A DNA stretch of 64,000 bases. Source: Synechococcales cyanobacterium bin59.metabat.ball.084 (GTDB taxonomy: Bacteria > Cyanobacteriota > Cyanobacteriia > Cyanobacteriales > Chamaesiphonaceae). This document shows, in pieces, positions 13,144 to 23,585 of the stretch. The notes under the pieces were generated by a model. It was not told the origin of the DNA, searched no databases, and saw only the letters and a list, made by a program, of their open reading frames with translations. How positions within the stretch are numbered: the stretch's first letter is position 1; every line of letters begins with the position of its first letter. The stretch covers positions 1-64,000 of the forward strand of contig JAAFHZ010000004.1 in the NCBI GenBank assembly GCA_013297675.1. The letters are read 5' to 3'. The translations under genes and the position numbers were made by a program.

Positions 13144-13325
13144 ATCAAATCAAGCAGATTGAATTAAGATTGTTAAGAACATTTACTTTTTGTGCAAAAA
13201 TCCATCGATACTTAGCTAATGCCCGGTATTTTGGGTTTAAATATTCTATTTAGATTTACTCTTTATCCACTCCATCGAACAAACGGTTTCAGTTGGCAGT
13301 CAGCGCCTATTCAGAGCAATCAATT

Positions 13326-14498
13326 ATGAGCAAACCCAACCCCATTTCATACCCAGGATTTAATAACCCCATGTCTGGCAACGACCCAATGTTCGATGAA
13401 ATTGTCCCCAGCAGCGTCGCCAGAATTAAAGTGATCGGCGTAGGCGGTGGTGGGAGCAATGCGATCAATCGCATGATCGCCAGCGATATCACTGGCATCG
13501 AGTTCTGGACGATGAACACCGATGCCCAGTCACTCTCCAACAACGGTGCCAATCGACGGTTACAACTCGGTCAAAAGCTCACCAGAGGGCTAGGCGCGGG
13601 CGGCAACCCGGCGATCGGCCAAAAAGCCGCTGAAGAATCGCGTGAAGAAATCGCTGCGGCGATCGAAGGCGCTGATTTAGTTTTTATTACCGCTGGCATG
13701 GGTGGCGGTACTGGTACCGGAGCGGCTCCGATCGTCGCTGAAATCGCCAAGGAGATGGGTATTCTCACGGTGGGGGTAGTTACCAAGCCATTTACCTTTG
13801 AAGGCCGTCGTCGCACTAACCAAGCAGATGAAGGCATCGCCGCTCTCCAGAGTCGGGTAGATACATTAATTGGTATACCTAACGACAATTTGTTGAAGGT
13901 GATTTCTGAGCAAACCCCGATGCAAGATGCCTTCCGCTTTGCTGATGATGTGCTGCGATCGGGTGTGCAGGGCATCTCCGATATCATTATGATTCCGGGA
14001 CTGGTTAACGTTGACTTTGCCGATGTGCGGGCAGTAATGGCCGATGCTGGTTCGGCTATGATGGGCACTGGTACTGGCTCGGGCAAAACCCGCGCAGAAG
14101 ATGCCGCCAAAATGGCGATCGAGTCACCGCTATTAGAATCTTCGATCGAAGGTGCTCGTGGAGTAGTCTTTAACATTACTGGTGGCGTAGATCTGAGCTT
14201 GCACGACGTAAATAAAGCCGCCGAAGTGATCTACGCTGCCGTAGACCCCAACGCCAACATTATTTTTGGTGCGGTGCTAGATGAAAGAATGCAGGGAGAA
14301 GTGCACATCACGGTAATTGCCACTGGCTTCACTGGTGAATCCCAAACTCCACCGCCAGCTCTAAATAAATCAGCTCCTATGTCCTTGCCTAAACGCTCGG
14401 TTGCTCCCACTCCTCTACCGGTGCAAGAGTCTAAGGGCAATCAAAAGGGTGGACTGGATATCCCAGAGTTCCTGCAAACTCGTCAGCCTAAAAAATAA
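13326..14498 (+). CDS. ftsZ: Cell division GTPase FtsZ
   Basis: 390 aa. It shows the nucleotide-binding [13 protein letters not shown], the tubulin signature [14 protein letters not shown], the T7 synergy loop around [11 protein letters not shown], a variable linker, and the conserved C-terminal peptide [11 protein letters not shown] that binds membrane-tethering partners. An in-frame TTG 33 bases upstream would add 11 residues; I prefer the ATG at 13326. Two hairpins follow the stop before the tRNA-Asn gene. Confidence 0.97.
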
Positions 14499-14616: not shown

Positions 14617-14688
14617 CTCCCCGAGCAAGATTCGAACTTGCGACCGATCGGTTAACAGCCGATTGCTCTACCGCTGAGCTATCGAGGA
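14617..14688 (-). tRNA. tRNA-Asn (GUU anticodon)
   Basis: The 72-base minus-strand sequence folds as a full cloverleaf: acceptor TCCTCGA/TCGGGGA with one T-G pair, D arm GCTC...GAGC, anticodon stem ATCGG/CCGAT with loop CTGTTAA, and T arm GCAAG-TTCGAAT-CTTGC. The discriminator is G and CCA is not encoded, as is usual in cyanobacteria. Confidence 0.97.
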
Positions 14689-15017
14689 TTGCGGTTACTG
14701 GGTTTAGGCCAGTTTTCCCATTATAACCATGCCTGGGAGTTATTGGCAAGGGTTTAATCTATAATTTCTTTTGAAAAATGCGATTACTATTCTCAGCGCT
14801 ATAGGTAGCGTAGTAAATTGATACACACGCTAAATTCCAAATCTCACGGATCATAAAGCAAAAATTATATATTGCAACTAGTGTGCTTGATCTAATACCA
14901 GATATGGCGTTCCCTTGGTTGGTCAATCCCCACATATCGGTGATTTCTAAATGCTACCAATTCAAGAATTTCCCTTAAATTCAGAATACAATATGACTCC
15001 CTGACAAATGGCTGCAC
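14689..15017. other. Spacer upstream of the CyRepA1 gene
   Basis: This spacer of about 330 bases lies between the 5' side of tRNA-Asn and the replication-protein gene. It is AT-rich, especially at 14850-14880. I looked for iterons, a duplicated tRNA end or an integrase and saw none. It should contain the tRNA promoter on the minus strand and the promoter of the replication gene. Confidence 0.3.
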
Positions 15018-18000
15018 ATGGAACTATCTACCCTAGACCCTCTGCATTATGCTGAGCTAGTAAAAGACAGCGGAATTGCACCTGGTTTAGCCAGCTTGAA
15101 TTTTCGATCGATCACTGGTGAGACTTGTTACGAGTACTTATTCATCTCCCCGGAGTTGCCCAGAAATAATGCTGGACAGGTAACTCCGGGCTGGCTGCGA
15201 CGGTACACCAACTGCTTAGAAGGCGGCTGGTGGTGTGCAGGCTTAGATCCTTTGGCCGACTGGCAGCCGATGGAATGGGGAACTTTCAAGCCCAATAAAC
15301 CCAAACGCAGCAAAGAAAACAAGCCGATCAAATATGAGCATCCGCCCCAGATGGCTACCAAGCTGTTTTGCTTGCGGGTAGATGGGGCAACTTGGCAGCA
15401 GGTAGCCCAACGCTACAAACAGGCTTTACCAGCAGGGATTACTCCCGACATCACCGAAGCGACTGGATTTTGGCAGTGGGTGATCGAACGCAAGCTGCCG
15501 ATCGTGATTTGTGAGGGGGCTAAAAAGACTGCTGCGCTGCTATCTCAGGGATATGTGGCCATTGGGCTGCCAGGGATCAACAGCGGTTATCGAGTATCTA
15601 AAGACCTAGCTGGGAATACGATCGATCGGCAGCTCATCGCGGAGCTAGCGGTTTTTGCAGAGGTCAAGCGAGATATTTTGATCTGCTTTGATTACGAAGT
15701 TAAACCCAAAACCCTAGATGCCGTAAACCGGGCGATCGCCCATTTGGGGGAAGTCTGCCAAACTCGGCAGTGCTCGGTAAAAGTAATTCGCCTCCCCGGT
15801 CCCGAAAAAGGTGTAGATGATTTCTTGGTGGCTCAAGGCATCGCCCAATTTGAGAAACTGGCAGCAGCAGCACTAGATCTAGAGACCGATTTGGCGCGGA
15901 CTCATCCTCACCATCGCCTCACCTATCCGGTGGCGGTTACTCTGCACCAACGCTATCTACAGCGTCTAGATTTTCCAGCGACCGGGATTGCTGGGGTGAA
16001 ATCGGCCAAGGGCACCGGTAAAACCACTTCCTTGATTCCGCTGATCGAAGCCGCCCGCGCTGAAAATCGGCCAGTGTTACTGTTAACTCACCGGATTCAA
16101 CTGGGCCGATTTCTCTGTGAGCGAATTGGGGTGAACTGGATCAATTCCAGCTTAGATCCCGGCAATAATTCAGCGGCTAGTTTGGGTCTTTGTCTAGATT
16201 CTTTGTGGAAACTCAACCCTGAGCATTGGTTGGGTGGCATTGTAATTTTGGATGAAGTAGAGCAGTCTCTCTGGCATTTGCTGAATAGCTCTACTTGCAA
16301 GAGCAAGCGATTAGTGATTCTCAAAACCTTTCAACGCCTGATTTTTCAGGTGGTAGCTTCTGGTGGCCTGGTGATTGGCCAAGATGCCGACTTGTCAGAT
16401 ATTTCGATCGATTACTTAGTAAAACTAGCAGGCTGCGAAATCGAGCCTTGGCTGGCGGTAAATGAGTGGCAGCCAGAAACTGGCTGGGAAGTGAACTTTT
16501 TTGATACTCCTAACCCCACGGCGTTGATTAATCAGTTGGAACAAGATTTATTAGCTGGCCATAAGTGCTATGTGACTACCGATAGCCGATCGGGTCGCTA
16601 TGGTTCGGATACGCTAGATCAATATATTCGCAATCAGCTTCAGCACTTAGAAAATCAATATACTAAAACGTTGGTAATTTGTAGCCAAACCACTAATACC
16701 CCTGACCATCCAGCGGTAGATTTTGCTTCCCAGATCAACGATCGAGCCACGGAGTATGATGCAGTATTTGTGACTCCTACTCTGGGAACTGGGGTAAGTA
16801 TTGATGTAGAACACTTCGATCGAGTTTATGGCTTGTTTCAGGGAGTGATTCCTGACCCAGAGGTACGACAGGCGCTAGCACGGGTGCGGGCGAATGTGCC
16901 GCGCTATTTGTGGTGTACCAAACGCGGTGTGGGGATGTTGGGCAGCGGCAGCAACAATTACCGCACCTTGGCTTTTTGGTATCAGGAAAACTACAAAGAA
17001 AGCTACGCTTTAATGTGCCCCAGCCAAGCTTTTGATGTGGATGTGCCGTTGATCTATGATCCTGTCCACTTACGGGCTTGGTCGAAGTTTGCGGCTAGGA
17101 TCAATGCCTCGATTACTCTCTATCGGGAATCGATTCGAGCAGGGCTGTTGCTGGAGGGTCATCAAATTATCAATATCGATGGTGATAGTGAAAGAGAAAA
17201 GCTAGTAGAGCTACGGCAGGCATTGGTTCTGGCGGCTAAGACTGATAAAGACCAGGCTAAAAAGTTGATGGGTGAGATTTTTGCTCTTCAGCAGCAAGTG
17301 GGTGCCAAGACCAAGAAACACCAGTTGATCAAAGATCAAACCAAGAATATTCAGCAGCAGGCTAAGCAACAGGCTGCCAATGCGGTGGCCAATGCGCCAG
17401 ATATTCGATCGGATCAATATCAATTTTTGGCGGGTAAGCGCTTTTTGACCGATGCTGAGCGCCAGCAGGTCAATAAATATATGCTGACACAGCGCTATGG
17501 GGTGAAGGTGACAGCAGATCTTAAGCTGAAAGATGAGCAGGGCTATTATGGCCAGTTAATGACTCATTTTTATCTGAGCTACCATTTGCAGTTTGCTAGT
17601 AACGATAAGCTTGCCCAGGCTTTTGATAACAACAATCCTGAGCAGCAGATTTTCTTGCCAGATATTAATAACTACACTTTAAAGATTCAAGGTTTGGTAG
17701 CTTTGGGTATTCCGGAGTTGCTAGATCCCGATCGACAGTTCACTTTGCAAGATCCTGATTTGGCAGCTTTGCAGCGGATGGCTTGTCTGTGTAGTCAGCA
17801 TATTAAGCGGGCGATCGGTCTCAATTTATCTTTGGATGGCAAGGCGGCTAAACAAGATAGTTCGATCGTGATTTTTGGTAAGTTCTTGGGTCTGCTCGGA
17901 CTAAAGTTGATATCTATTAAGACTAGCGGCAAGGGCAAGAAAAACAAAATCTACCAAATCGATCCTGAGACTTGGAACGATGGTCGTAATAAAATCTTTG

Positions 18001-18104
18001 CGGTCTGGAAACGCAATGCGGTCATCGATCTCAATATCTTGCAAGGCACTCCCGAAGCTCCAATCCTCAGCGATATCAACAAAGTTCCGGCAGGAGTTAG
18101 CTGA
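15018..18104 (+). CDS. Plasmid replication protein, CyRepA1 type (DUF3854 plus helicase-like)
   Basis: 1028 aa. The N-terminal third is a DUF3854 TOPRIM-like region (VICEGAKKTAALLSQGY at about 162-178 and DILICFDYE near 225). A P-loop NTPase/helicase-like core follows, with Walker A KGTGKTTSLIPL near residue 335 and Walker B IVILDEVEQS near 411. The C-terminal 350 residues contain a Gln/Lys-rich coiled segment. From memory this is the domain order of the CyRepA1 family, replication initiators of many cyanobacterial plasmids. Finding it beside ftsZ and tRNA-Asn suggests an integrated plasmid remnant or a chromosomal homologue. No partition or integrase gene is adjacent. The frame is intact. 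Confidence 0.85.
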   Translation: MELSTLDPLHYAELVKDSGIAPGLASLNFRSITGETCYEYLFISPELPRNNAGQVTPGWLRRYTNCLEGGWWCAGLDPLADWQPMEWGTFKPNKPKRSKENKPIKYEHPPQMATKLFCLRVDGATWQQVAQRYKQALPAGITPDITEATGFWQWVIERKLPIVICEGAKKTAALLSQGYVAIGLPGINSGYRVSKDLAGNTIDRQLIAELAVFAEVKRDILICFDYEVKPKTLDAVNRAIAHLGEVCQTRQCSVKVIRLPGPEKGVDDFLVAQGIAQFEKLAAAALDLETDLARTHPHHRLTYPVAVTLHQRYLQRLDFPATGIAGVKSAKGTGKTTSLIPLIEAARAENRPVLLLTHRIQLGRFLCERIGVNWINSSLDPGNNSAASLGLCLDSLWKLNPEHWLGGIVILDEVEQSLWHLLNSSTCKSKRLVILKTFQRLIFQVVASGGLVIGQDADLSDISIDYLVKLAGCEIEPWLAVNEWQPETGWEVNFFDTPNPTALINQLEQDLLAGHKCYVTTDSRSGRYGSDTLDQYIRNQLQHLENQYTKTLVICSQTTNTPDHPAVDFASQINDRATEYDAVFVTPTLGTGVSIDVEHFDRVYGLFQGVIPDPEVRQALARVRANVPRYLWCTKRGVGMLGSGSNNYRTLAFWYQENYKESYALMCPSQAFDVDVPLIYDPVHLRAWSKFAARINASITLYRESIRAGLLLEGHQIINIDGDSEREKLVELRQALVLAAKTDKDQAKKLMGEIFALQQQVGAKTKKHQLIKDQTKNIQQQAKQQAANAVANAPDIRSDQYQFLAGKRFLTDAERQQVNKYMLTQRYGVKVTADLKLKDEQGYYGQLMTHFYLSYHLQFASNDKLAQAFDNNNPEQQIFLPDINNYTLKIQGLVALGIPELLDPDRQFTLQDPDLAALQRMACLCSQHIKRAIGLNLSLDGKAAKQDSSIVIFGKFLGLLGLKLISIKTSGKGKKNKIYQIDPETWNDGRNKIFAVWKRNAVIDLNILQGTPEAPILSDINKVPAGVS

Positions 18105-18494: not shown

Positions 18495-18911
18495 TTACTT
18501 AACAATCATCACTGGAATTGATGTTTTAAGGGTGTTCCATACCTCGATCAATCTTTGGTAGCTGATAGATTCATAAGCAGTAGATTCATATCTTTGTACC
18601 ATTTGTTCTTTGATGCCTAGTTTTTCGGCTAGTTCTCGCTGGGTCATGCCTAGGCTGATCCGTTTTTGAATAAGTACTTTGGGTAGGTCTTCGATCGCAC
18701 CCATGATGATTTCCACTTTTCCCGCTTTCAGATCATCATATTCTTGTAGCTCTTTCTGCATCTGATTAATTTGGGTTTGAAAGCCGTTACGGGTGGCTTC
18801 TACCATTAGGGGTGGAAGGGATTCTGCTTCTGTGGCTAAAGTTGTCAGAACTCTGGCTAGATCGTCGATTTTAGATTTGGTGATTTTATATTGGTATTCA
18901 TTTTGGATCAT
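18495..18911 (-). CDS. XRE-family helix-turn-helix protein, antitoxin-like
   Basis: 138 aa. The N-terminal 70 residues are helical, with a coiled-coil-like stretch (INQMQKELQEYDDLKAG). A Cro/CI-type HTH follows at about 85-125 (RISLGMTQRELAEKLGIKEQ and QRYE). Its start overlaps the stop of the upstream DUF6932-type gene by 4 bases, the tight coupling typical of toxin-antitoxin pairs. It probably binds its own promoter and counters or regulates the partner. Confidence 0.8.
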   Translation of the reverse strand: MIQNEYQYKITKSKIDDLARVLTTLATEAESLPPLMVEATRNGFQTQINQMQKELQEYDDLKAGKVEIIMGAIEDLPKVLIQKRISLGMTQRELAEKLGIKEQMVQRYESTAYESISYQRLIEVWNTLKTSIPVMIVK

Positions 18912-19333
18912 GGCAGTTCATCCGGTAGTTCTTGGGGGTTGATTTCAATGATGCTTCTGAGTCGATTTTGTCTGTCGGTTTTGAGGAAAACTTGGAATTG
19001 GAACATGGTATCGGCGACTAGACTGCCACCAAAACGTTTTTTCTGCTCTGTGGCATCGATTAGTACTGGATCTAGTTGGCTAGAGTACCAATCAATTTCT
19101 AGTCGGTCAAAGCACCCATCAAAGTCGTTGGGAAATTCTTTGTCTGTTGTTAGGCTGCCACCAATCCAGATTTGGGTACATCCGACTTGGGCAAGCAGTT
19201 TGGCTAGACTAAAGAAGCCGTTAACTAGTTGCTCTCGGCGTTTGTTGCCGCTGAAGTAATCACGGAAGGCATCGCATGAAATTTGATAGTTTCCTGGGGG
19301 GAGGTATCCATAGGAGTTATATGGTGGAAGCAT
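18908..19333 (-). CDS. DUF6932-type nucleotidyltransferase-like protein
   Basis: 141 aa. It opens with MLPPYNSYGYLPPG and has a minimal-nucleotidyltransferase-like motif IWIGGSLTTDKEFPNDFDGC, which follows the GS...DxD pattern of MNT folds. From memory this corresponds to DUF6932. Such proteins occur beside HTH or HEPN partners in toxin-antitoxin-like operons. It is first in a two-gene minus-strand operon with the XRE protein. Whether it is toxin or antitoxin cannot be read from the sequence. Confidence 0.7.
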   Translation of the reverse strand: MLPPYNSYGYLPPGNYQISCDAFRDYFSGNKRREQLVNGFFSLAKLLAQVGCTQIWIGGSLTTDKEFPNDFDGCFDRLEIDWYSSQLDPVLIDATEQKKRFGGSLVADTMFQFQVFLKTDRQNRLRSIIEINPQELPDELP

Positions 19334-19564
19334 TTAGGAAATTTCGGTGCAATTCCAACTAAAATGATGTCTCGATAGTAACACAACTTTTATTTGGTTA
19401 TTCTTTTTGGCGATCGATACCAATACGGCTTTTAGGTGGTTGTGTTTTTGGTGATCGGGGAAGTTGCGGCCTAAGTCGGGAGCAGAAATTATGAGATTTG
19501 GATATTTTTCATCAGTCTTATCTATCTGCTAGAATGGGAAAAATTTTATTTCTTTGATGGTGCT

Positions 19565-20098
19565 ATGTATCGCTCCTCTCTGTTTTTGAATGCGGCTTTG
19601 ATTGGAACTACTGTGGCATTAGTACAGCCATTGGCACAGGCCAAAACATCAGTAGAGGTTGGTCGTATTGCTAAGGCGATTACCGTACAAATTAAGCAAG
19701 TCGGGTCTGATAATGCAGGTTCGGGGATTCTTTTACAGAAACAGGGTGCAGTTTATACGGTGCTTACTGCTGGACATGTGGTAAATAGTGGATCAAACTT
19801 TACTCTCAAAACCTCTGATGGACAAATGCATCGGATGATCGCTGGTTCAATTCTTCCTTCTGGCAACAATATTGACTTGGCGGTACTGAAGTTTACCAGC
19901 GGCAATAACTACTCCTTAGCAAAAATCGGAACTTCCAATTCTCTTGAGGAACTCTCGCCGATTTATGTCGCTGGCTTTCCCAAGGCTTCTTATGCAATAC
20001 CTGATCCCACTATTCATATTATTGATGGCAAAGTTATTGGTAAGGCCACTAATATTGACCATAAAGTCGCAGCCACTCTGCCAAATCATTGTCGTTAG
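19565..20098 (+). pseudogene. Truncated trypsin-like serine protease
   Basis: The first 160 or so residues are a secreted S1-type protease: a signal peptide (to about AQAKT), the catalytic His in VLTAGHVV and the Asp in NNIDLAVLKF. The domain then stops before any GNSGGP-type serine motif. The frame runs out through sequence that, on the opposite strand, is a DUF4351-like gene tail (20049-20165), and ends at 177 aa. The gene appears to have been cut by a recombination with this repeat. Without the catalytic Ser it cannot be an active protease. Confidence 0.75.
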
Positions 20099-20165
20099 TA
20101 AAATCCAGTAGGTCTATGGCGAGTTGTTCAAGTTGATCGATCGGCAGCACGCTTTCAGATCCTGA
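20049..20165 (-). pseudogene. DUF4351-like C-terminal tail, copy 1
   Basis: The minus strand reads VLPIDQLEQLAIDLLDFTN then DNDLAEWLRLYGQY and a stop. This pattern (LP.EQLE.L...LLDF....DL..WL) matches the C-terminal DUF4351 segment of Rpn/PD-(D/E)XK transposase-like proteins. Nothing of the N-terminal domain remains; a stop codon lies just upstream. The scrap underlies the 3' end of the truncated protease gene and lies 40 bases from the parE stop. Confidence 0.65.
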
Positions 20166-20204
20166 TTAAGATCCTATCAAGAAAGCAAAAGCCAACAAGA
20201 CCGA

Positions 20205-20510
20205 CTAATTGACATCATCATCGAAGTAAGCCTCTATATCCATTCGATCGTGCAGAATCCGCACAATTTCTAAACCGCCAGAGGTCAGATGATAAAAAAT
20301 TAAGTGTCTTCCAACATGATACTTCCGATACCCTGGGCGAATGTCATCACAAGCCTTGCCAAGCTGAGGCTCCTGCGCCAAAAGATGAAAAACAGCATCA
20401 AGTTTGGCCAAGTAAAGATTCCTCTGTTCCTTTCCCCAAGTCACTTGGGTATATCGACCAATAGAGCGCAAATCTTGTTTAGCTAACTCAGTAAGACGAA
20501 AAATCATCAT
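20205..20510 (-). CDS. parE: ParE/RelE-family toxin
   Basis: 101 aa RelE/ParE-superfamily toxin: LTELAKQDLRSIGRYTQVTWG at the N-terminus, then YRKYHVGRHLIFYHL and the IVRILHDRMD strand near the end. ParE-type members poison DNA gyrase, while RelE-type members cleave mRNA; with a ParD partner the former is more likely. Its ATG overlaps the antitoxin stop (TGATG). Confidence 0.88.
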   Translation of the reverse strand: MMIFRLTELAKQDLRSIGRYTQVTWGKEQRNLYLAKLDAVFHLLAQEPQLGKACDDIRPGYRKYHVGRHLIFYHLTSGGLEIVRILHDRMDIEAYFDDDVN

Positions 20511-20752
20511 CAGACAGCTTCATCCCGATCCAACTCTTCTATTAAGCCTTGTAAAGAATATTCAGCAGCCCCGCTTTTCTCCCCTTCCACCAGTGACTGC
20601 CTCAAAGCCATCAACTTCAGCTCTCGCTCTTCCAACAAGCGCAGCCCAGCACGAATAGCCTCACTAGCAGAAGAAAAGCGCCCATTATCAACCTGACTAG
20701 CAATAAACGACTCGAAATGCTCACCTAAAGTCACACTGGTGTTTTTCTGCAT
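20510..20752 (-). CDS. parD: ParD-family antitoxin
   Basis: 80 aa ribbon-helix-helix antitoxin. The N-terminal RHH region reads NTSVTLGEHFESFIASQV with the SSASEAIRAGLRLLEERE helix, followed by a disordered tail that would wrap the toxin. I chose the ATG at 20752 over an in-frame GTG 12 bases upstream. The 7-bp inverted repeat upstream is a probable self-binding operator. Confidence 0.88.
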   Translation of the reverse strand: MQKNTSVTLGEHFESFIASQVDNGRFSSASEAIRAGLRLLEERELKLMALRQSLVEGEKSGAAEYSLQGLIEELDRDEAV

Positions 20753-20774
20753 ATTGTTACCCACACAAACTTTA

Positions 20775-20801
20775 ATACCAACAGATATTATATATTGGTA
20801 T
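20775..20801. promoter_or_regulatory. Likely ParD operator
   Basis: ATACCAA (20775-20781) and TTGGTAT (20795-20801) form an inverted repeat around an AT-only core with TATA-like elements, 23 bases upstream of the parD start. The position fits autoregulation by the antitoxin. Confidence 0.5.
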
Positions 20802-20828
20802 CAACTTCATGTCTATTGGCTACTAAGG

Positions 20829-20987
20829 CTAACCATAACGCCGTAGCCACTCTGCCAAATCGCTGCTGTTGGTAAAATCCAGTAGATCTATGGCGAGTTG
20901 TTCTAATTGATCGATCGGCAGCGCCCCAATCTTTGCCAAAATTTCTTCAGAGATCTGTTCTCGGTGATCGATCGAATGATGTGTTTG
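20829..20987 (-). pseudogene. DUF4351-like C-terminal tail, copy 2
   Basis: The minus strand reads EQISEEILAKIGALPIDQ then LEQLAIDLLDFTNSSDLAEW and LRRYG before a stop. The N-terminal catalytic domain is absent, and a TGA lies just upstream of the open stretch. It is nearly the same as copies 1 and 3 and sits between the parDE promoter and the next broken gene pair. Confidence 0.65.
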
Positions 20988-21015
20988 TCACTTGTAAACG
21001 ATGGCGAAGTTGATA

Positions 21016-21135
21016 TTAGTTTGAGCTTATGTATTTTAAGGCTTCTGGAGTAGGATATCGATCAATTTCCTGCAAAGCTTGTCTTTCTAGTAGTCTTTCG
21101 ACGTTATTGAATCCCAAAATTCTTGCTGTTATCAC
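21016..21135 (-). pseudogene. Scrap resembling an HNH-endonuclease C-terminus
   Basis: A 39-codon minus-strand frame starts with GTG overlapping the stop of the small gene upstream (GTGA). It reads VITARILGFNNVERLLERQA then LQEIDRYPTPEALKYISSN. The N.xxLLxxR...I.RYP pattern recalls the end of small HNH endonucleases, which I remember as common partners of the upstream small protein in cyanobacteria. The bulk of such a protein is missing. The assignment is tentative. Confidence 0.35.
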
Positions 21136-21370
21136 TTAGCAATGTTTTTTCGGGCACGGGCTTTGGCTAGACGCATGAGATGCTCTAGCTCCATGTAATG
21201 ATTTAGCTCTGAGGTTTCATCTGAAGTCAATCCAGTAGTTTTTCTCGTCGGATCAAATCAGCAACGTGTTGTTTTGCTGCTTCTGACGGTTGGAATGCAA
21301 TAATGCTGTCTGGAGTGGTGCCTTCTGCAATAAAGTCAATGACTTCTTCGTAAGCTTTTGATATCGCCAT
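21132..21370 (-). pseudogene. Small conserved cyanobacterial protein, frameshifted
   Basis: The gene starts MAISKAYEEVIDFIAEGTTP at 21370 and runs in frame to ADLIRREK, then stops early. Restoring one base in the A-run (T-run on the plus strand at 21239-21243) continues the product as TTGLTSDETSELNHYMELEH then LMRLAKARARKNIAK and a TGA at 21132. The continuation is exactly what I remember for this 70-80-residue cyanobacterial family, often paired with an HNH or toxin gene. So a single-base deletion has broken it, unless it is a sequencing error. Confidence 0.75.
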
Positions 21371-21523
21371 GTTTAATCCTTTTAAAAAAAATAGTTTGAT
21401 GTGATGATAGCTTTTGGCTAGATCCAGATAGGGTTTATTTTTGCTAAGGGCGGCCATTCTATTTCTAGATCTTACAAATTCATAATAGCAATCTTGTTCA
21501 AGAATTTCGTGAGATACAGAAAG

Positions 21524-21682
21524 CTAACCATAACGCCGCAGCGACTCTGCCAAATCATTGCCGTCGGTAAAATCCAGTAGATCTATGGCAAGTTGTTCAA
21601 GTTGATCGATCGGCAAAACCTCAATCTTTGCCAGAATCTCTTCAGAAAGCGGCTTTTGACGACTTAGTTGTTTAATGACCAT
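21524..21682 (-). pseudogene. DUF4351-like C-terminal tail, copy 3
   Basis: A 52-codon frame with an ATG at 21682: MVIKQLSRQKPLSEEILAKI then EVLPIDQLEQLAIDLLDFT and DGNDLAESLRRYG. It is the longest of the three copies and reaches furthest into the linker before the tail. No catalytic domain is present, so it is a remnant even though it could in principle be translated. Confidence 0.6.
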
Positions 21683-21716
21683 TTTAGCTGGATTAGCTTA
21701 CGTGGGCGAACTTCCA

Positions 21717-21899
21717 ATGAAAGTTGATAAAACAGCAAAAATTCGTGGGCTTGAATTCTTAACTGAGGTGCCATCCGATTCAGGTACAAGGCCGGGGCTA
21801 GCTTACTGGTCTGGAAAAAGAGACGGTGTTCACAATGAAGATGGGTACGCTAAAATCAAAGTAGACATAACGTTCTGCAACCAGCTAGATGAGCTTTGA
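21717..21899 (+). CDS. Short hypothetical ORF, 60 aa
   Basis: A plus-strand frame from the ATG at 21717 (an earlier in-frame ATG at 21675 overlaps the DUF4351 scrap). It reads MKVDKTAKIRGLEFLTEV... with no recognised domain. It ends 8 bases before the start of the next gene, which has a better ribosome binding site. It may be a fragment of an older gene. Confidence 0.3.
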   Translation: MKVDKTAKIRGLEFLTEVPSDSGTRPGLAYWSGKRDGVHNEDGYAKIKVDITFCNQLDEL

Positions 21900-21907
21900 G
21901 GCAGGTA

Positions 21908-22570
21908 ATGAGTGTTCAAGAACTGCCAGAAGAACAACTTATTCGATTTGAAGATGTAACTCCAGCGCGGGATATCGTCGCTTTTTTTGCTGGCTCTCTA
22001 AAACCGTTGGTTAATCATCTAAACCTGCCTGTTTACTTGGGCTATGACGATTTGGATGAAATATTATTTACCTTTTTAACTTTGCCCTCAGGAAAAACTG
22101 TGACATTAGGGCAGTATCGAGGTTCACCACAGCTTGGGGTGGATTTATATGTAGACCCCAGCATTCAGGATGTGCCAGCAGTTATTTATGAAAGCTGTCA
22201 GCAATTGGAAATTTCGCACTCAGAAGTTACTTGGTTACATGCTGACGTTCAGAAGCAGGTCGATCGGCTATATGCAGAGAACGGAGATTTCCCTGGTGGG
22301 AGAGCGGGGGTTTTATTGATCGAGCCATGGCCAAAAAGCAGCGAACACAAGCCTTTAAAATGTTTCCTACATTCTCTTCGCATTTACGATCAACAAGTAT
22401 TGTCTCCTGCTAATATCTTTGAAGATCATTCTGAGGTGTCGCAATTTTATTATCGACTGTTGAGAATGGCTAGTACTTCATCAGGGGTGAGCAATGAAAA
22501 TAATGTGATTTCCATGAATGATTACATCGCTGCCGTTGAACCCGCTCAGCCAAATAAACCTTTAAAATAA
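21908..22570 (+). CDS. Hypothetical protein, 220 aa
   Basis: I chose the ATG at 21908 (MSVQELPEEQLIRFEDV) because it follows a GAGGCAGG ribosome-binding stretch; an in-frame TTG lies 12 bases upstream. The protein is soluble, without signal peptide or membrane helix. It contains LPSGKTVTLGQYRGSPQLGV and a C-terminal helical part. I recognise no family. Its stop overlaps a small antisense frame (22562-22732). It sits alone on the plus strand within the toxin-antitoxin zone. Confidence 0.55.
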   Translation: MSVQELPEEQLIRFEDVTPARDIVAFFAGSLKPLVNHLNLPVYLGYDDLDEILFTFLTLPSGKTVTLGQYRGSPQLGVDLYVDPSIQDVPAVIYESCQQLEISHSEVTWLHADVQKQVDRLYAENGDFPGGRAGVLLIEPWPKSSEHKPLKCFLHSLRIYDQQVLSPANIFEDHSEVSQFYYRLLRMASTSSGVSNENNVISMNDYIAAVEPAQPNKPLK

Positions 22571-22732
22571 TCGGTATTTTGTTTGAGATAAATTATCTAA
22601 ATCCACTACTGAACCAAAGCGAATAACTGGGAGTTGGGTGCTATTAACGATGATCATTCGTGAATTCATATCTCTGATCACTCTAGGCAGTTGAGAATTG
22701 AAGAATTCGATCATAGAAACAATTTCAATCAT
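22562..22732 (-). CDS. Small hypothetical ORF, 56 aa
   Basis: A minus-strand frame from an ATG that overlaps the stop of the preceding fragment by 8 bases. It reads MIEIVSMIEFFNSQLPRVIR and ends ...LSQTKYRLF. The tight overlap and the protein-like composition suggest a former two-gene unit. No family recognised. It may be dead, since its partner has lost its start. Confidence 0.3.
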   Translation of the reverse strand: MIEIVSMIEFFNSQLPRVIRDMNSRMIIVNSTQLPVIRFGSVVDLDNLSQTKYRLF

Positions 22733-22871
22733 CAATGCCATTTGCTTGCCAACGCGATCGAAGTTCTTTGACAGTTAGTTTTTCCTTTTGCTTTGCGGTG
22801 GCCAGAAATTCAGAGAGCCACTCTTTGGGAACTTGTGTAAAAGTAGGGCTGCGATCGATAATCCAAAAATA
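22725..22871 (-). pseudogene. Start-less gene fragment fused behind the DUF5615 gene
   Basis: Directly after the TAG of the DUF5615 gene, and in the same frame, the minus strand reads YFWIIDRSPTFTQVPKEWLS then EFLATAKQKEKLTVKELRSR and WQANGIDD before a TGA. It has no start codon. It looks like the C-terminal half of a small protein whose N-terminus was replaced when the DUF433/DUF5615 pair arrived. Confidence 0.35.
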
Positions 22872-23249
22872 CTATTTTTCAGATGATTTTGCATCTCGGG
22901 TAATTCTAAGCAGTTGACCATTTAAGGATTCGGTAGCTCCGCTTGCGCCAAAGGCGATCGCAGAGACAGCTTCATCAATCTTGGCAGCAAGTCGCCGATA
23001 GTCTCTATTTTCGGTGCAGGCAATAATACCACTGTGCTCTATTTGTTCTCGATGTAAGCGAATAAAGTCTTGGCGATTAATGGTTAACACGGCTCGATTG
23101 TTAGCAGTAGCATAGGCCAAAACCTGATCATCAGGAATCCTTTGGTTAGCATTTCCTGCTTCTTGTACAGTCAAAACATCGTGACCAAGCAGTCGTAAAT
23201 GATCAGTGGCGGCTCGGGGAAACTGTTCATCAGCATAGAATCTGGCCAT
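22872..23249 (-). CDS. DUF5615 PIN-like toxin candidate
   Basis: 125 aa. The start ARFYADEQFPRAATDHLRLL carries the DE...P pattern of DUF5615, a PIN-like family, and further acidic or polar active-site positions are seen in VLTINRQDF. Family members are thought to be RNases paired with DUF433 proteins. The DUF433 gene lies 3 bases upstream, forming a standard pair. The C-terminus (RITRDAKSSEK) runs straight into a foreign fragment after the stop. Confidence 0.82.
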   Translation of the reverse strand: MARFYADEQFPRAATDHLRLLGHDVLTVQEAGNANQRIPDDQVLAYATANNRAVLTINRQDFIRLHREQIEHSGIIACTENRDYRRLAAKIDEAVSAIAFGASGATESLNGQLLRITRDAKSSEK

Positions 23250-23252
23250 ACA

Positions 23253-23585
23253 CTAGTCTTCTTCCTGTCTAGCGATCGCCCGATCGATTTCCCCAGCATA
23301 TTGTTCAGCATAACGCCAAGCATTCACCAAGTCTTGAGCCGTAAGTGTGGGGTAGTTTTCTAAAATCTCTGCTTCACTACTCCCCATCCGTCGATAGCTA
23401 ACTATGAGCCATACTGGAATACGACTTTCACAAATACAGGCTTCACCACCCATCACACCAGGCGTTTTGCTAATCCCTGGCCAAGTGCCCTCAAGGTTAA
23501 GACTATGCACCAACATCTGAATAATTTCAGTTTTTTGACTGTTAGGCAAAGAAAGAAGCTGCTCTTGTAATTCAGGAGTGACCAT
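23253..23585 (-). CDS. DUF433 antitoxin candidate
   Basis: 110 aa. The core PGVMGGEACICESRIPVWLIV followed by SEAEILENYPTLTAQDLVNA is the DUF433 winged-helix-like signature. The N-terminal 35 residues (LQEQLLSLPNSQKTEIIQML) form a helical extension seen in several cyanobacterial members. It is first in the operon with the DUF5615 gene and probably represses it and neutralises the partner. Confidence 0.82.
   Translation of the reverse strand: MVTPELQEQLLSLPNSQKTEIIQMLVHSLNLEGTWPGISKTPGVMGGEACICESRIPVWLIVSYRRMGSSEAEILENYPTLTAQDLVNAWRYAEQYAGEIDRAIARQEED

Follow-up and report, generated by a model that had tools for sequence, protein, structure and literature searches.

Does an intact plasmid replication gene in a cyanobacterial chromosome mark an integrated plasmid, an origin for a chromosome that does not depend strictly on DnaA, or a gene that the chromosome has made its own? 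The question is raised by a 64,000-nucleotide stretch of DNA, here called the window, from a Synechococcales cyanobacterium (bin59.metabat.ball.084; assembly GCA_013297675.1, contig JAAFHZ010000004.1), in which a gene of the CyRepA1 family of plasmid replication proteins lies beside ftsZ and a tRNA-Asn gene. The window covers bases 1 to 64,000 of a 93,693-base contig in a genome of 4.64 Mb (220 contigs, 99.59% complete). Our analysis gives good support to domestication, in which a plasmid-type theta-replication initiator was turned long ago into a vertically inherited chromosomal gene. Judged from sequence, the chances appear evenly balanced that this domesticated initiator serves chromosome replication, as a candidate stand-in for DnaA in the window's family.

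Identity and domains of the gene

The gene occupies positions 15018 to 18104 of the forward strand and encodes 1028 amino acids (aa) from an ATG start without an internal stop. The first-pass annotation had read here a full frame of CyRepA1 type with TOPRIM-like, Walker A and Walker B motifs, and both the frame and the assignment proved correct: the protein scored 367.7 bits (E = 1.3e-109) against the NCBIfam CyRepA1 model NF042913, whose curated cut-off is 200 bits, and carries both features of the family, an N-terminal DUF3854 domain and a helicase with Walker motifs. DUF3854, which is TOPRIM-related (PMC10079941), spans 15468 to 15842 (+; aa 151-275; Pfam PF12965, E = 6.2e-47) as a primase-type domain with the conserved residues E166, D225 and E227. 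The CyRepA1-model region with a superfamily 2 (SF2) helicase core covers 15984 to 17909 (+), as indicated by the NF042913 match and by fold and profile matches to the herpes origin-binding protein UL9. Within it lie Walker A (nt 15993-16028, aa 326-337), Walker B (nt 16233-16265, aa 406-416) and, identified by conservation, a motif VI-like Q/R/R set (Q618/R622/R624; nt 16842-16889), all on the forward strand. The C-terminal part (17043 to 18047, +; about aa 676-1010) is mostly helical in the predicted structure, has no convincing fold match and is a possible DNA-binding part. Taken together, the motifs would equip an initiator to melt its own origin and to prime there.

Conservation and descent in the window's family

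Close orthologues, 59-96% identical, were found in 11 of 11 family genomes, with the copies of G004 and G008 split by contig ends; the copy of G003 stands on a 6,284,095-base contig that is clearly chromosome. Between the window and its sister species (G001), the ratio of nonsynonymous to synonymous substitution rates (dN/dS) is 0.033 (dN 0.020, dS 0.61), a level of purifying selection comparable to that on the neighbouring genes ftsZ (0.015), metG (0.046), an lptC-like gene (0.063) and ftsQ (0.081). Synonymous divergence of these neighbours is 0.44-0.74, and the gene and its neighbours have diverged together. Genus g1 and the second g2 group are both monophyletic in a tree of ftsZ, in line with the tree of the replication protein, and the first g2 group is not monophyletic in the ftsZ tree; the ftsZ tree is compatible with vertical descent of the gene in the family. 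Because the family scores are high and dN/dS is this low, a chance origin of the frame is excluded. A domesticated gene was among the options of the first-pass annotation, and its presence throughout the family, the selection on it and its neighbour-like dS support that option well. G003 additionally carries a plasmid-type CyRepA1 gene (C2:4511-7315, on a 31 kb contig), and its plasmid-type and chromosomal copies stand far apart in the tree.

Apparent loss of dnaA

A full DnaA model found no match over cut-off in the 11 family genomes, compared with 21 of 29 other genomes of the order, and the Bac_DnaA_C domain was missing from all eight family genomes of at least 90% completeness vs presence in 336 of 389 genomes in the order sample. 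Weak partial matches in G001, G003 and G010 (41-53 bits, positions ~99-245) look like other AAA+ proteins. The lineage thus unites the gene in every genome, purifying selection on it and no full dnaA in any genome, as would be looked for with a chromosomal initiator. The suggestion that the gene provides a fallback origin for a DnaA-independent chromosome gains weight from this absence, and "fallback" may be too weak a word. DnaA and CyRepA1 are unrelated proteins that would share the proposed role of starting chromosome replication.

The available part of one study reports dnaA-less free-living cyanobacteria only from the Cyanobacterium/Geminocystis group, with the initiator unknown (PMC7198777). 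The window's family resembles that group in being free-living and without dnaA, but belongs to another lineage.

Two chromosomal clades among the relatives

In a tree of 73 rows, the window protein falls into a chromosomal clade X (30 rows; Shimodaira-Hasegawa-like approximate likelihood ratio test, SH-aLRT, 100) that spans families f1, f12, f21, f22, f31 and f32 and contains no plasmid row. A second chromosomal clade, Y (24 rows; SH-aLRT 100), includes f2 (genus g52), f5, f7, f8, f10, f15, f20, f24, f26, f29 and f30, and all 16 plasmid rows lie outside both. Forcing X and Y into one clade was rejected by the approximately unbiased (AU) test (p-AU 0.0003, for a grouping defined once the tree was known and with long branches as a caveat), and two separate captures by chromosomes are therefore likely on the tree. 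Across the three groups (X, Y and the plasmid rows), which make up 70 of the 73 rows (the three ungrouped rows were left out), E166, D225, K335, D412, E413, Q618, R622 and R624 are invariant; the third acidic residue is E227 in clade X and D in most other rows. All 30 X rows retain the catalytic residues of both the ATPase and the TOPRIM-like domain.

The order sample comprised 389 genomes of at least 90% completeness, with two candidates scored per genome among the matches listed. X was called from a P0001 match of at least 51% identity and Y from an L246 match of at least 54%, with G134 (54%) dropped as probably plasmid-type. X was found in 138 genomes, Y in 131, both in none and neither in 120; as broken or fragmented copies could have gone unnoticed, the count of neither may be too high and that of both too low. 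At least 44 of the 138 X genes are on megabase contigs, given that 39 lie beyond base 1,000,000 and five on contigs of at least 5 Mb (G003, G300, G335, G376, G383); the remainder are on smaller contigs.

Plasmid relatives are distant. The best plasmid match to X among those listed is 37.4% identical, all 452 records stay below 60%, and the search also matched many Klebsiella and Escherichia records; for Y the best listed plasmid match reaches 54.1%. The carriage on a plasmid that the NF042913 product name implies does not apply to the window gene, which stands beside ftsZ and is chromosomal in relatives. Its position lowers the "plasmid gene" label and leaves its membership of the CyRepA1 sequence family untouched. 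With the CyRepA1 of the Synechocystis plasmid pSYSA (Slr7037), the window protein shares the NCBIfam family and the domain order, but it is chromosomally encoded, only about 32% identical over 87% and placed in another clade. Autonomous replication of pSYSA requires CyRepA1, according to the available part of PMC9978351.

Outside the order, full-length copies in f47 score about 1010-1063 bits against an X+Y profile, several of them at megabase positions (e.g. G563:C1:3912795, G574:C1:3223209, G493:C1:4649968), and are perhaps a third chromosomal lineage.

Clade Y provides a parallel to the window's family. Six reduced, single-contig, dnaA-less genomes of 1.44-3.07 Mb (G248 with 1,443,806 bases, G257, G175, G185, G212 and G230) retain one Y copy each; the absence of dnaA from UCYN-A and from spheroid bodies is reported in the available part of PMC6315102. 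Genus g87 carries Y in six of six genomes, dnaA having been lost in the four reduced ones and being present in the two larger ones. Nine genomes of genus g52 in f2 (G078, G126, G139, G183, G220, G225, G236, G246 and G287) all carry Y, and the dnaA domain is missing from six of them, a pattern of recent or repeated dnaA loss. Elsewhere, G028 matches DnaA only in pieces with stop codons (C86:29758-30246, C97, C176) and has no CyRepA1 at E 1e-20; its dnaA is decaying. In Picosynechococcus PCC 7002, DnaA-independent replication is reported to begin at a single site near dnaA (PMC7198777); in G039, a genome seemingly of a similar kind, 0.23 Mb separate Y from dnaA.

Predicted structure and helicase relatives

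The predicted model of the window protein (predicted local distance difference test, pLDDT, 80; predicted template modelling score, pTM, 0.70) combines an SF2 core with a TOPRIM-like domain at the N terminus. A Foldseek search of the PDB returned as its top four matches chains of the herpes simplex virus 1 origin-binding protein with origin DNA (E 1.8e-15 to 3e-13), followed by ordinary SF2 helicases (E 2e-7). The lead is smaller by Z score, at 21.7 for UL9 (525 residues, root-mean-square deviation 13.6) and 18.6 for generic SF2 helicases. A sequence profile built from 28 relatives likewise matched only four PDB entries at E 0.01, all herpes origin-binding proteins (E 9e-8 to 5e-7), with the UL9 match covering aa 319-475 (E 9e-8). 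UL9, the best PDB match, shares with the window protein the helicase core and the overall fold order over aa 287-994; the extra N-terminal TOPRIM-like domain sets the window protein apart, and generic SF2 helicases fit too.

The Pfam family PF02399 (Herpes_ori_bp) gave no match to the window protein at E up to 1, and since its cut-off was not passed we do not file the protein as a member of the UL9-like family; a clade Y relative (G248) does pass, with 31 vs 20 bits. Searching the window's own genome with PF02399 gave no match, and neither did the control, so that this negative carries no information. Among phage proteins, phrog_4913, annotated as replication, matches aa 322-624 (E 2e-36), and the likeness is restricted to the helicase part. 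A search of phages likewise gave matches to the helicase part alone, at no more than 28.4% identity among those listed. We take the N15-type RepA to be a primase-helicase initiator of this phrog_4913 kind. No relative of the window protein was found in the viral contigs.

Upstream DNA

An alignment of the 11 family loci revealed conserved blocks within about 200 bp of the gene start, in the intergenic stretch at 14790 to 15017 (+). It includes a palindrome, CGCTATAGGTAGCG (14797 to 14810), which is a candidate binding site for the initiator or an operator. In some form the pattern CGCTAT-NN-RTAGCG is present upstream in all 11 family genomes, and as the exact CGCTATNNRTAGCG in eight. It is absent from the upstream stretches of f32 and Y genes examined, and an alignment of upstream DNA across families revealed no block in common with f1. 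Only the position of the palindrome is notable, because its genome-wide count does not exceed that of a reversed control pattern. In G008 (L064), an inverted repeat without mismatches (22-base arms, 1-base loop) stands beside the palindrome, 132-171 bases upstream, and a shorter form occurs in G006.

A search for iterons within and around the gene yielded only chance-like short repeats, and the 288 nt upstream fold no better as RNA than shuffled sequences (z 0.26). The first 40 codons (15018 to about 15140) show little synonymous change in three of seven pairs (z about -2.5, the lowest of some 50 windows in each). This may reflect translation signals or a hidden DNA element and is too weak to claim; an origin hidden in the coding region was dropped as a candidate for the same reason.

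Genomic surroundings

Upstream of the gene, as read from the sequences, lie metG, an NYN protein gene, the lptC-like gene, ftsQ and ftsZ (13293 to 14498, +), the last a genus-specific neighbour, and then tRNA-Asn(gtt) on the minus strand (14617 to 14688). The tRNA gene turns its 5' end towards the CyRepA1 gene, in line with the first-pass annotation. Downstream, a toxin-antitoxin-rich zone (18495 to 23585, -) holds intact-looking ParDE (20208-20764) and DUF433/DUF5615 (22875-23585) pairs together with HTH_3 and DUF6932 open reading frames (ORFs), all of them between 18498 and 23585, and ribosomal-protein genes on the minus strand come after it. Among the 10 ORFs of the zone that were scanned, none has a ParA or integrase domain, in agreement with the earlier reading that such genes are missing nearby. 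The zone had also been proposed as plasmid cargo; it exists, but the CyRepA1 gene of the sister species is followed by other genes and has no such zone beside it, and we therefore do not tie the two together.

In both genomes of genus g1 the gene follows ftsZ and tRNA-Asn, with differing 3' neighbours. Within g2, G003, G004, G007, G009 and G010 have one common 3' context and G002, G005, G006 and G008 another; the ftsZ clusters of seven g2 genomes have neither the gene nor tRNA-Asn in the stretches read, and the same genomes carry the gene elsewhere. No neighbourhood is conserved across families. The first-pass annotation had held that the same gene in the same place throughout the order, with no plasmid homologue, would speak against its proposals; retention of the gene is indeed wide, but genera differ in where it lies, and there are plasmid homologues, though distant ones.

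Three further CyRepA1-like frames in the window's own genome (C186, C144 and C107; 986-1178 aa) score below the family cut-off and are perhaps plasmid-borne. Synechococcus elongatus, used as a control, showed no CyRepA1 above that cut-off.

Weighing an initiator role

If the domesticated gene serves as chromosomal initiator, its protein would bind at a site within or close to the gene itself, possibly the conserved upstream palindrome, which might instead act as an operator. The UL9-like helicase would then melt the bound site and the TOPRIM-like domain would prime or recruit a primase, such that chromosome replication would start there, alone or with other origins, as it does through DnaA elsewhere. 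The gene could occupy different places in different genera because it and the adjacent DNA would move together.

Several observations weigh against this role. X or Y is no more frequent in genomes without dnaA (34 of 53) than in genomes with it (235 of 336; Fisher p 0.42), and in those 235 it occurs together with dnaA. Neither X nor Y is found among the matches listed in 19 of the 53 dnaA-less genomes (all 13 of f14, two of f13, and G026, G032, G141 and G299), some of which hold other CyRepA1-type genes, so that dnaA loss is possible without X or Y. These counts make X and Y neither sufficient nor necessary for the loss; they weigh against a simple one-to-one replacement of DnaA, and X or Y may be one permissive route to it. 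Since f14 lacks dnaA, X and Y in 13 of 13 genomes, replication there must start in another way. Nor does a reduced genome guarantee retention: at E 1e-20 no CyRepA1 was found in the dnaA-less G102 and G195 (2.8-2.9 Mb), and dnaA-less G117 (2.2 Mb) has one copy, outside X and Y.

At the locus itself, the ftsZ cluster on one side and ribosomal genes on the other are both oriented towards the gene, which is unfavourable (head-on) for an origin there if genes follow forks. A fold search with the C-terminal part alone gave no match and did not recover the specific DNA-binding part of UL9. Rfam found only the tRNA upstream, with no sign of a structured RNA like the copy-control RNA of pSYSA. GC skew was sampled in G003:C1 (60 stretches of 20 kb) and G248:C1 (20 such stretches); it is irregular in both, with a cumulative range not above shuffles (p 0.38 and p 0.67), and locates no origin. 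The G003 minimum at about 0.97 Mb lies some 0.14 Mb from the gene (0.825 Mb), in a skew that is not significant, and is not counted as support. Uninformative skew is expected for such cyanobacteria according to the available part of PMC7198777.

A possible, though rather unlikely, alternative is that the gene was domesticated for another DNA task, such as replication restart, repair or lagging-strand priming on a polyploid chromosome, with initiation by recombination or other origins. The coexistence of X or Y with dnaA, the f14 genomes that manage without either and the irregular skew all suit it, as do flat marker-frequency profiles in two dnaA-less species, interpreted as many origins in the available part of PMC7198777. 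On the other side, the closest studied relatives are replication initiators, the initiator-type motifs are fully conserved and conserved upstream DNA travels with the gene.

It is improbable that the gene is a conserved autonomous selfish origin that replicates its surroundings locally without being the main chromosome initiator. Its place varies between genera and toxin-antitoxin genes lie close by in several genomes, but every genome of the family carries it, at a dN/dS in the range of housekeeping genes, and a single copy is retained in strongly reduced genomes. A regulatory or relic function unrelated to replication, for example as a DNA-binding repressor, is quite improbable given the catalytic residues kept throughout X. 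A recently integrated plasmid or its remnant, the remaining option of the first-pass annotation, is very improbable: the family is plasmid-borne in many records and a toxin-antitoxin zone follows the gene, but site and neighbours are common with the sister species at equal dS, the gene is chromosomal in relatives across the order, the plasmid relatives listed are distant and none of the 10 zone ORFs scanned has a ParA or integrase domain.

Implications

The CyRepA1 sequence family is known; as a vertically inherited chromosomal gene of a dnaA-less family it is not described in the literature searched, where no paper linked CyRepA1 to chromosome replication or reported dnaA loss in the window's family. 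How cyanobacterial chromosomes initiate without DnaA is left unknown in the available part of PMC7198777. A conserved chromosomal initiator-type gene in a dnaA-less family, with a parallel clade in endosymbiont-size genomes, offers a named and manipulable candidate. More tentatively, cyanobacterial chromosomes may on two or more occasions (X and Y) have captured primase-helicase initiators from plasmids, which then took over initiation or shared in it and thereby made dnaA dispensable; dnaA would then have been lost several times, including in a whole free-living family and in endosymbiont-size genomes with the captured protein as surviving initiator. If true, a captured plasmid replicon would be running a cellular chromosome, which would help to explain the frequent loss of dnaA in the order.

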